Source of the DNA: a virus
DNA length: 21,426 nucleotides
Direction: 5' to 3' (one strand)
IMG/VR virus record: IMGVR_UViG_3300044825_002519
Location: 1 to 21,426 of that record
Below the pieces are notes generated by a model that worked only from the letters and a program-made list of their open reading frames with translations, did no database searches and was not told where the DNA came from. This document shows, piece by piece, positions 1-3,561 of this stretch (the first letter of the stretch is position 1; each line of letters starts with the position of its first letter). The translations under genes and the position numbers were made by a program.

Positions 1-187
1 ACACCCAGTAGTCTCTGCACCTTCCAATCACGACTTGATTGGCTTGGCTCAGGATTACCCTCGTCTTTACGTTAGGGCTTCCCTGAATTCATCCGGTTTG
101 CACCCATCGATTGCTCGGTGGGGTGACAACGTTGAGCGTTCAGATTAAACAATTAAAATTGTTTACCAGGACCTGAACTAGCTATCA
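1..187 (-). ncRNA. Group I intron, 5' part (3' part lies outside the window)
   Basis: On the minus strand the conserved group I core elements occur in order: P (AAUUCAGGGAAGCC, about 78-91), Q (AAUCCUGAGCC, 46-56) and R (GUGCAGAGACUAC, 8-20). P4 pairs UUCAGG with CCUGAG. P5 is a CCCU/AGGG stem at 57-79. P6 extends as a perfect 7-bp hairpin (CCAAUCA/UGAUUGG, 24-42). A P2-like hairpin with a GCAA loop lies at 101-125. The core wording closely matches introns of cyanobacterial tRNA-Leu genes. P7', P8, P9 and the 3' splice site are beyond position 1. The 5' end at 187 is inferred from a 7-bp P1: exon UGUUUAU (188-194) pairs with the internal guide GUAAACA (160-166), leaving the diagnostic U-G pair at the splice site. 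A competing hairpin uses the same guide bases (146-165), so the 5' boundary is less certain than the core. No homing endonuclease frame is visible here. Confidence 0.8.
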
Positions 188-210
188 ATAAACACCTTGG
201 TTTATCCTCC
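188..210 (-). promoter_or_regulatory. Shine-Dalgarno, GTG start and putative first exon ahead of the intron
   Basis: On the minus strand a perfect GGAGG (206-210) is followed after 10 bases by GTG TTT AT (195-188). The predicted 5' splice site then comes after the second base of the third codon. If correct, the interrupted gene begins here and continues to the left of the window. The frame upstream of GTG is closed by a stop, and no ATG start feeds into the splice site in the other frames. The interrupted gene cannot be identified, although by position it would be the next gene of the late operon. Confidence 0.35.
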
Positions 211-848: not shown

Positions 849-1814
849 TCACTCCATTACAAACAGTTTGTTGGCAACAACTTGAGGCTGAGCTTGGTTC
901 AGGAGGCGCCAGGCTTGTGCAGGATCTACATCCATTTGCTGCTTGAAGGAACCCCAGAAGTTTTCAGGTTGCTGAGGAGCGGAAGCTGCAGGGGGAGCAG
1001 GGAATTGACCAAGGGCACTTTGAATCGGAGCAGTGGGATAACCACGGGTCTCCAGTTGAGCCTCATCTTCGTACACAGGGTACGGACCTTCAGGACCGAA
1101 GAACTTCAGCGTGTAATCGCTCAGTACATCGGGATTGGTCAGGATCTCGTTGTAAGCCAGGTTCTCTTGGTGCTCAGCAACAGAGAAGTTGGCATAACGC
1201 TGCAGGACATCTTGGGCCTTGCTGCCCCAGGCAACAGCGCTATCCAGCATCCCTTCCAGTTGAAGGGCGTAGTTATTTAGGATTGCGGGTGCTTCTACCC
1301 CGTACGCGTCTACCACGTGGCGCGTTTCCGGACTCCACTGGAGCAGATCCGCCACGTCCGCCAAGGATTGAACCGAGTAGGTTTGGGAAGAGTTGGGCGA
1401 GGAGATCTGGTTGGGTGACCAGGTCTGCTGAGCCGATTGTTGCGTAGCTGGGTTGCTGTACTGCTGGCCGTAATTGGCTGGAGCGTATTGCGTCGTCGGA
1501 GACGATTGACCCTGGAACGGGGATTGAACTGGTGCGCTCAGCAGATTCACCACCTTGTTGAACGCCGACTCCCAGGGGTTGCTGCTCGGAGCTTCCGGTT
1601 GGGATTGGGGGGCGTACTGCGTAGGGGCTGATTGGTAATTGGGGGCCACCTGAGGCACCGCTTGGGGGTAACTGGTACCCACTTGATACGCCACTGGAGC
1701 CGGGCTCTGTGCCACCTGGTAATTGACCGGGGCTGGAGCCACGTAGCTGCTTGGAGCCACCGCTGCCGGGACTTGGCTCGTCTGTGGGATCGATTGGACG
1801 GTAGCGTCCTGCAT
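849..1814 (-). CDS. Probable virion structural protein with disordered N-terminus, overlapping the portal gene
   Basis: This is a 321-residue protein. The start is well supported: on the minus strand AAGGAG stands 7 bases before the ATG at 1814. Residues 1 to about 147 are low complexity, rich in Pro, Gln, Ser, Ala and Tyr. From about residue 148 the sequence looks folded and alpha-helical (for example LADVADLLQWSPETRHVVDA), with an acidic stretch (GPEGPYPVYEDEAQ) and a Pro/Ala linker before a short C-terminal helix. The first 180 codons lie inside the 3' part of the portal gene in another frame. Position straight after the portal suggests a scaffold, head or head-completion protein. I do not recognise a named family. 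Confidence 0.8.
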   Translation of the reverse strand: MQDATVQSIPQTSQVPAAVAPSSYVAPAPVNYQVAQSPAPVAYQVGTSYPQAVPQVAPNYQSAPTQYAPQSQPEAPSSNPWESAFNKVVNLLSAPVQSPFQGQSSPTTQYAPANYGQQYSNPATQQSAQQTWSPNQISSPNSSQTYSVQSLADVADLLQWSPETRHVVDAYGVEAPAILNNYALQLEGMLDSAVAWGSKAQDVLQRYANFSVAEHQENLAYNEILTNPDVLSDYTLKFFGPEGPYPVYEDEAQLETRGYPTAPIQSALGQFPAPPAASAPQQPENFWGSFKQQMDVDPAQAWRLLNQAQPQVVANKLFVME

Positions 1815-3561
1815 AACTCATCTCCTTTTGTAGAGCTTCTAAGGTTCGATACAGATATGGAGTTAAATCCAATCTTGGATCCGCAGCCATCGGAAGATCC
1901 GGTGCTTGCGGGTGAGGAGTCTGCATCATGCCCCCCACTAAGCGAGCGAATTGAGAGTATGCACCCTGTAATTCGTTCACCATCCTGAATGGGAACCCAG
2001 ATAACATCTCGGCCCTTTCCTCATCCGTCTTAGACGGGAAGAGGTATTTCAGTGCTTCAATGCTATCAACACCTAACTCCTGAAGGTTGCGTACCACGAT
2101 GGAGTTGTTAAGGATGTCCTGCGTGGAATCCTCATATACAGGTCCCAACCAACGCCACAAAACAGTGACGTCACCATCTGGAATCAAACCAATGACATTA
2201 GGTGGAATCTGTTGTGCTTCCACGCAAGCCATCATAAGGCTCTTGAGTTGCTCGTTGTATTGCTTCTCTGCTGCTTCATAACCAGCTTCATCTTCCGGTG
2301 AAGCATCTGGCGGTAGATCCACAGGCTTTTCAAGTCCTGCTGCAGATGCAAGTGTCGCTTTGAATAATTGTTCTTCTTGGTAGATAATCAATTCAAAACA
2401 ACGACACAAGCCGTGTGTATAAATAGCATTTGCTTTTTTCTTTGATGTAGCAGCAACGCGTCCAAACAATGATTTGTACTCAGTTGCTGTCACACCAGCA
2501 GAAATTGAAAGTTCGTCTACACCACCAAGTGCGGTGCGAATCTCTTCTCGATACTGACGAGCAAATGCATTTTGGTCACCAGTGATTGCATCTGGAACGA
2601 TATAGCCAACACGGTCGTTTGGTTCCAGGTTTGCAATGACGCGTGGAACACGGATCTGGCCATCAACACCACGGCTGACGGGATCAGCCTTGAACATCGA
2701 CCGACTCATCGGTGATGGGCTAGTAAAGCCAGAGTTTGCAGCAATGGAAGGACGCTGAACAATAGCGTCTCCCCCTGCCTCCATGAGGTCAGTCTTGGGG
2801 CGAGACGACAACAGCGTTGGGTTACCAAAGAAAGTGATATTCTTCCGCATCGTACGCATCATTTCGTCATGCGTACAAATGTGATTGGCTAGTGCATCAA
2901 ATTCACCAATACCCTCTGAAGAGAAGCCCTGGGGATTATTGATGATTTCAACGCAGGGGATAAAGCCAAGACTATTTTTAAACGTCTTGGTATGCCCGGT
3001 CAATGCATAGGTTGGCATCTCAAATGACATCTCGGAATCCGAGTGCGTCTCTTCAATCTCTCTGGGCTTGATCGAAAGTCTGATGTAACGCTTTGCACCA
3101 GGACTGCCAGTGCTCAAGCCACCTGTTAGCGATGTGGTTGAAAGCTGATCACCAAAGCCATTAGCCTTGCGAACCTTATAGCTGTAGATAATTACAACTT
3201 CGTCAAGCTCACCGTCAACGTTGTAGTACGCACGATACTCATGCTCGCGGAAATAGTAGAGACGATAGTTTTGTTTTGTAGGACGGATGTAGAAAAGACC
3301 TTTGCCATCACACAGGAAATACTCCCAGATTGAATCCAGGCGTGTGTCTAGTTTGTTGTACTTGGCTACACGATCGATAAAGTCTTTGCGCTGGTTACCA
3401 AAGTTATCTTGGGATGGAAAAAATTCAACCCCTTGGCGTATGCCAAAGAGTTTCATCTGTGCGATATGAGACGCGACAACGCCAGTGTCTACAACAACGT
3501 CACTATCTTTGTCGAGATAGGCATTGATGATTTCCTGAAGCCTGGCTTTAGCGTCTGCCAT
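1273..3561 (-). CDS. Portal protein (head-tail connector) with long overlapping C-terminal tail
   Basis: This 762-residue protein is the best candidate for the portal, the dodecameric ring through which DNA enters and leaves the capsid. Evidence is its size, its place downstream of terL, and an overall pattern like the portal superfamily: an N-terminal helical region, a beta-rich wing with an aromatic segment (YRLYYFREHEYRAYYNVDG), a helical stretch with ANHICTHDEMMRTMRKN, and an Ala/Glu-rich stem and crown region around residues 350-450. The folded part appears to end near residue 583 (QKEMSYAGRYRPIDPTDE). The remaining roughly 180 residues are Gly/Ser/Pro-rich with a basic end (RGRRVRGRSTRNPK). 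That tail is encoded entirely within the overlap with the next gene. There is no clear Shine-Dalgarno sequence before ATG 3561. The portal call rests on pattern and context, not alignment. Confidence 0.75.
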   Translation of the reverse strand: MADAKARLQEIINAYLDKDSDVVVDTGVVASHIAQMKLFGIRQGVEFFPSQDNFGNQRKDFIDRVAKYNKLDTRLDSIWEYFLCDGKGLFYIRPTKQNYRLYYFREHEYRAYYNVDGELDEVVIIYSYKVRKANGFGDQLSTTSLTGGLSTGSPGAKRYIRLSIKPREIEETHSDSEMSFEMPTYALTGHTKTFKNSLGFIPCVEIINNPQGFSSEGIGEFDALANHICTHDEMMRTMRKNITFFGNPTLLSSRPKTDLMEAGGDAIVQRPSIAANSGFTSPSPMSRSMFKADPVSRGVDGQIRVPRVIANLEPNDRVGYIVPDAITGDQNAFARQYREEIRTALGGVDELSISAGVTATEYKSLFGRVAATSKKKANAIYTHGLCRCFELIIYQEEQLFKATLASAAGLEKPVDLPPDASPEDEAGYEAAEKQYNEQLKSLMMACVEAQQIPPNVIGLIPDGDVTVLWRWLGPVYEDSTQDILNNSIVVRNLQELGVDSIEALKYLFPSKTDEERAEMLSGFPFRMVNELQGAYSQFARLVGGMMQTPHPQAPDLPMAADPRLDLTPYLYRTLEALQKEMSYAGRYRPIDPTDEPSPGSGGSKQLRGSSPGQLPGGTEPGSSGVSSGYQLPPSGASGGPQLPISPYAVRPPIPTGSSEQQPLGVGVQQGGESAERTSSIPVPGSIVSDDAIRSSQLRPAVQQPSYATIGSADLVTQPDLLAQLFPNLLGSILGGRGGSAPVESGNAPRGRRVRGRSTRNPK

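Follow-up and report, generated by a model that had tools for sequence, protein, structure and literature searches.

Mycobacteriophage LittleE carries a probable group I intron of ~820 bp in its major capsid gene, with splicing demonstrated by RT-PCR (PMC3706429). Like the intron described here, which sits after codon 4 of a cyanophage capsid gene (the codon-4 intron), that of LittleE has its endonuclease ORF on the opposite strand, an exon 1 ending in U, and an intron ending in G (PMC3706429), and it is therefore a precedent for an antisense endonuclease in a capsid intron. The two differ in that LittleE is an unrelated phage with another insertion point, whereas the present site lies at codon 4 and its element recurs in >100 contigs. 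The freshwater cyanophage Pf-WMP3 likewise combines a group I (IA2) intron with an HNH endonuclease (PMC3428280), although its intron interrupts the DNA polymerase gene, at another insertion site and with another endonuclease. The nickase of this phage, I-PfoP3I, nicks exon 1, 4 nt upstream of the insertion site (PMC3428280).

The T4 td intron with I-TevI is also a mobile phage group I intron, and the end of its endonuclease gene overlaps ribozyme structure (PMC2988022); it differs from the codon-4 intron in having a sense GIY-YIG endonuclease and in occupying a metabolic gene. Co-conversion in td homing is biased to exon 1, because I-TevI remains attached to the exon 2 side (PMC2988022). Endonuclease genes opposite the ribozyme strand are found in myxomycete nuclear rDNA introns as well (PMC9548176), but these encode His-Cys endonucleases and reside in eukaryotic rDNA.

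At the DNA level, the terminase introns of Vibrio phages 1.187.O and R16F and the near-tRNA introns of Klebsiella jumbo phages are 72–77% identical to the codon-4 intron over the core. This similarity starts after the guide, and these introns have other insertion sites and hence other guides. The R16F terminase (L321, OP793884; 1712–4202) is annotated as five separate pieces, and its stretch 2501–3120 contains DNA related to the codon-4 intron, which suggests several introns in one gene. Our literature search, whose coverage was incomplete, found no published description of the codon-4 intron in S-EIV1-like phages.

The intron and its junction in the capsid gene

The window, i.e. the whole 21,426-base stretch of virus DNA that was analysed, holds the intron at its left end on the minus strand. 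Taken together, the evidence supports a group I intron that lies between capsid codons 4 and 5 and is mobile in this phage group, with a copy in the window that has lost its endonuclease gene; we assign this reading a probability of about 0.93. Genes for a virion structural protein (phrog_20475, E = 5e-275) and for the terminase large subunit (phrog_38) are found on the minus strand of the window. Both are located upstream of the capsid start and form a late structural operon with it, as the initial annotation had proposed. Of the named phages, Synechococcus phage S-EIV1 (KJ410740) is the closest, with 75% DNA identity over the structural gene. Two minus-strand ORFs of the window (849–1814 and 1273–3561) overlap by 542 bases; the corresponding S-EIV1 gene pair has no overlap, and so the true start of the 849–1814 gene is probably downstream of its first ATG.

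Across the window, Rfam yields a single match, to the group I intron family (RF00028, minus strand 165–1, 40.5 bits, E = 2.3e-7, 3'-truncated). The match falls short of the gathering score (50), in keeping with truncation at the contig end. The visible core runs from P3 to the 5' strand of P7 and includes the P, Q, and R elements, while the whole catalytic core (P3–P9 with P, Q, R, and S) is present in relatives, from which we infer the 3' half and the 3' exon that lie outside the window. Complete copies in these relatives score 89–98 bits (92.5–97 bits for L031, L058, and L049), and the earlier identification as a group I intron is thereby upheld. The intron probably belongs to subgroup IA; P7.1 and P7.2 between P7 and P3' are a feature of this subgroup, and fold predictions for complete copies show helices GUAACA with UGUUAC and CUGG with CCAG. 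The window (at position 1) as well as contigs L008, L035, L068, and L069 terminate within the intron, perhaps because assembly breaks where intron and empty, or long and short, alleles coexist.

A search with the upstream structural gene yielded 80 related loci, 24 with the intron, 39 with an empty site, and 17 that do not cover the site. Pattern scans of the virus collection gave at least 119 intron stretches and at least 120 empty ones, and over all loci together we count 69 distinct complete introns, spread over 111 loci, as well as 156 loci whose site is empty. Intron alleles read GTGTTYATTGAT/AGCTRGTTCAG ... ACCAGGAG/AACGAYTTTCC (slashes mark junctions), while empty alleles read GTGTTYATTGAYAAYGAYTTYCC, with the consensus GTGTTYATTGAT/AAYGAY. 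All 69 distinct complete introns are inserted at GTGTTYATTGAT/AACGAY. The empty alleles thus fix the junction as GTG TTT ATT GAT/AAC GAC and, since they share the exon through GAT, place the 5' splice site at 184/183, between codons 4 and 5. The intron's identity and the position of its junction are near certain.

The capsid gene likely starts at GTG (195–193), as it is preceded by an in-frame TAA (204–202). In relatives, splicing at this junction gives a capsid ORF of 386–389 aa in 70 of 74 alleles; among the four exceptions, one is 365 aa, and L084, L141, and L153 (the latter two 107 aa) enter a second intron. The frame restoration expected of a group I intron is therefore seen in relatives, as is the coding, in-frame 3' exon that the initial annotation called for. 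Exon 1 ends in U and the intron, again in relatives, ends in G (...ACCAGGAG/AACGA), with P10 also present; this 3' end is located beyond the window itself. The joined gene, VFIDNDFPKILGAEL..., encodes the major capsid protein: its intronless homologue matches the phrog_1357 major head protein (E = 7e-11), and it is 88% identical to the S-EIV1 ORF at KJ410740 60859–61839. That S-EIV1 gene (L002 from 8860) is not annotated as a major capsid gene; the record instead lists a hypothetical opposite-strand ORF (60784–61545) and a partial ORF (61540–62010).

Fold prediction for the smallest copy, L084 (5' part), pairs UGAU/AGC with GUUGUCA (Table 1). The pairing is complete in 70 of 70 distinct 5' ends in which exon and guide are readable, and all of these have U184 opposite G127, the U.G pair of a group I splice site. 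We also examined covariation in an alignment (A1) of nine endonuclease-less 5' ends, where P1, its extension, and the distal hairpin are paired in 100% of cells and double-sided changes occur at four pairs, all within the distal hairpin. Both P1 and P10 are invariant, so covariation argues neither for nor against P1. The distal hairpin is where the endonuclease gene is inserted in relatives.

The initial annotation had proposed another P1, a 7-bp helix of TGTTTAT with GTAAACA that puts the splice site after GTGTTTAT (188/187, in the third codon) and makes a hairpin at 146–165 a potential switch over the guide. Allowing G.U, this helix does form 7 of 7 pairs in the window and in most short-form alleles whose codon 2 is TTT. 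However, it has a C.A mismatch in 4 of the 9 aligned alleles with no double-sided change, and it is missing from L084; the GTAAACA segment belongs to the endonuclease tail and the distal hairpin, and the latter covaries independently. The empty alleles share the exon through GAT, and joining after GTGTTTAT breaks the frame, leaving a median product of 26 codons vs ~387 aa. As such, we consider this P1 to have almost no chance of being correct. What stands is a splice site within the first few codons, at a position four bases further on, and a hairpin that is real but forms a conserved, covarying part of the P1 extension instead of a switch, with the guide itself at 130–124.

Table 1. Features of the codon-4 intron, its surroundings, and further introns of the capsid gene. 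Positions refer to the window unless a contig is named.
Feature	Position	Strand	Evidence or comment
Hairpin upstream of capsid ribosome-binding site	229–253	minus	Conserved whether or not the allele has the intron
Shine-Dalgarno-like GGAGG, 10 nt before GTG	206–210	minus	Sequence
In-frame TAA upstream of GTG	202–204	minus	Sequence
5' exon GTG TTT ATT GAT, capsid codons 1–4	184–195	minus	Empty alleles, spliced ORF, phrog_1357
Group I intron, 5' two thirds (183 of ~280 nt)	183–1	minus	RF00028 and empty-allele boundaries; remainder beyond contig end
P1 5' strand UGAU/AGC, spans 184/183	181–187	minus	7/7 pairs in 70 distinct 5' ends
In-frame stop UAG, intron nt 4–6	178–180	minus	Within palindrome CTAG (178–181)
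P1 extension 5' strand GUUCAG	173–178	minus	Also antisense to endonuclease gene tail
Endonuclease remnant TAC CAG GAC CTG AAC TAG (Y Q D L N stop)	164–181	plus	YQDLN-stop C-terminus in relatives
Distal hairpin of P1 extension	147–164	minus	4/7 pairs with double-sided changes, 100% of cells paired
P1 extension 3' strand CUGAAC	138–143	minus	Alignment of 5' ends
P10 guide CGUU for 3' exon AACG	131–128	minus	Overlaps P1 guide
Internal guide GUUGUCA, P1 3' strand	124–130	minus	G127 faces splice-site U184
P2 hairpin (approximate)	103–123	minus	Rfam alignment and predicted fold
P3 5' strand CCGGAU	91–96	minus	Partner GUCCGG beyond window, present in L031
P4-P5-P6 and P7 5' strand (P, Q, R elements)	9–90	minus	Rfam alignment
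Intron near codon 29	L038 10676–10974		Antisense LAGLIDADG_3 ORF
Intron after codon 48	L084 2466–2729; L146 1662–1951		Sense LAGLIDADG-type ORF
Intron near codon 90	L141 1322–1667; L153 9941–10901		Sense LAGLIDADG-type ORF

Judging from its sequence, the intron is predicted to be self-splicing. Specifically, the transcript would form P1 between the guide GUUGUCA and the stretch composed of exon UGAU and intron AGC, guanosine would attack at U184/A183, and the 3' exon AACG would pair with CGUU (P10), the exons joining as VFID/NDFPKILGAEL. Translation of the unspliced RNA ends after VFIDS, i.e. after 5 codons, where the ribosome would halt at UAG, and the intron makes capsid genes unreadable to ordinary gene callers. 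A copy cut at the contig end, with its 3' half out of view and no endonuclease gene, might also be a dead remnant that has lost splicing in this phage. This is very unlikely, given that the 130 nt of core in view match intact copies exactly and that the host gene is an essential structural gene from which unspliced RNA yields 5 codons.

The antisense endonuclease and intron mobility

Most copies of the intron encode a protein on the opposite strand. An intact antisense HNH endonuclease gene is carried by 61 of the 69 distinct complete introns, which are 821–827 nt long and have this ORF inserted within the P1-extension loop. The reading frame is uninterrupted in each of the 61; its median dN/dS is 0.11, and changes cluster at its own (antisense) third codon positions. 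The protein matches HNH_3 (E = 3.6e-10), while its helix-turn-helix matches are below cut-offs, and a tblastn search of the phage collection gave one match at E = 1e-5, to a Vibrio phage and not to LittleE. The position of its stop is the same in all 61 introns. This stop is supplied by the opposite strand of the CTAG palindrome (178–181; intron nt 3–6), which thus holds a stop on both strands; CTAG is kept in all endonuclease-bearing 5' ends, and CTGG replaces it in 3 of 12 short ones, although these numbers are small. With its stop opposite the in-frame stop of the intron, the endonuclease gene of the relatives invites the question of how antisense expression is achieved within a late operon. 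Searches for a promoter and a terminator of this gene found nothing above chance, i.e. 3 promoter-like sites vs 1.9 expected and 1 terminator-like site vs 1.7 expected.

The remaining 8 of the 69 complete introns are 271–325 nt long and have no endonuclease gene, although two of these short forms (L141 and L156) keep pieces of it. For 6 of the 8, the nearest core is endonuclease-bearing; the other two (L109 and L200) are nearest each other, with an endonuclease-bearing core at 99.1%. Given these nearest cores, the short form most likely arises by repeated, recent endonuclease loss. The window copy would be one such recent loss from an intron with the antisense HNH homing endonuclease gene in its P1-extension loop: its 130-nt core is identical to that of the endonuclease-bearing L005 and L111, and it keeps the last endonuclease codons because these also form the P1 extension.

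The distribution of the intron points to frequent movement. A tree built from 150 structural-gene sequences, 60 of them from intron-bearing and 90 from empty loci, has 28 changes of intron state, and well-supported branches force at least 22 gains or losses. For example, the intron and ~650 nt directly upstream set L058 apart from L037, and beyond these the two are ~100% identical for over 2 kb on both sides. Among close pairs (n = 7 and 6 intron/empty pairs), identity in the last 100 nt upstream averages 79% for intron/empty pairs, 100% for empty/empty pairs, and 93% for intron/intron pairs, while the downstream flank is 99% identical. The region from −700 to −300 upstream is variable in controls too, and some of the divergence could be ordinary recombination; as this stretch is partly variable in controls and the tree and pairs share relatedness, the length of the co-conversion tract is uncertain. 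Typing the upstream flank by short motifs was uninformative, since both classes contain the motif.

Patchy presence at one site and flank co-conversion are thus both found, as in homing introns, and the almost exclusively upstream co-conversion fits homing. Based on these sequence comparisons, homing by the HNH enzyme is very likely in this phage group, where the putative HNH homing endonuclease would perform the cutting. The one-sided pattern resembles what td homing (PMC2988022) or an upstream nick like that of I-PfoP3I (PMC3428280) may produce. Lacking an encoded homing endonuclease save for its last codons, the window copy is classed as a derivative of a mobile intron and not as itself mobile. 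We find that intron alleles always have AAC after the junction (relatedness not removed), and that GAC before it or AAT after it occurs in 24 of the 102 distinct empty alleles; because GAT was set in the pattern used to search for introns, only the AAC/AAT contrast counts as an observation. A widespread cyanophage group hosts in its capsid gene a common group I intron that is apparently still on the move, and pairs of nearly identical phages, one with and one lacking the intron, are a natural record of recent homing.

Translation start and splicing

The corrected 5' splice site follows nucleotide +12 of the capsid gene, and this position falls inside the normal ribosome initiation footprint. 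An initiating ribosome may thus overlap P1 sterically, and the competition between translation start and splicing that the initial annotation suggested is plausible, although in a weaker form. The site offers a clean natural test of how ribosome and ribozyme share an mRNA. Both in-frame stops after exon 1 and a coordination between splicing and translation are well established (PMC3984707).

Given this arrangement, we wondered whether the intron is kept as a regulator of the capsid gene, with a ribosome at GTG covering P1, excluding splicing, and thereby timing late expression. Such a role would agree with the location of the splice site (12 nt into the gene and within the standard footprint) and with the in-frame stop directly after exon 1, and T4 introns do show translation-splicing coordination (review PMC3984707). 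Yet many near-identical phages do without the intron, so this regulation is not needed and is unlikely to be the reason for the intron's presence. The distribution and co-conversion fit a selfish element, and the CTGG change has cost some endonuclease-less copies the first stop. We therefore regard regulation as improbable and prefer a mobile intron. Similarly doubtful is the stronger proposal that initiation and splicing exclude each other on each transcript, making the intron a timer of late capsid expression, with the endonuclease message in relatives adding antisense pairing over the capsid start.

The hairpin upstream of the capsid ribosome-binding site was considered as an intron-specific element and rejected, because empty alleles have it too. 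It is kept in all alleles examined with differing stems, e.g. GATAAGACAC with GTGTCTTTATC and GATAAGCC with GGCTTTATC.

Other introns in the same capsid gene

Group I introns also occupy no fewer than three other sites of the capsid gene, near codons 29, 48, and 90 (Table 1). Among the proteins encoded in sense orientation in these introns, those of L084 and L141 were tested and both match LAGLIDADG_2. The L038 match is the only one above the Rfam gathering score, with the other second introns at 33–43 bits (E at most 1e-4). Scans recover 6 contigs that have the codon-48 element and 9 that have the codon-90 element, and three contigs of each kind also carry the codon-4 intron. As such, several contigs have two introns in the capsid gene simultaneously.
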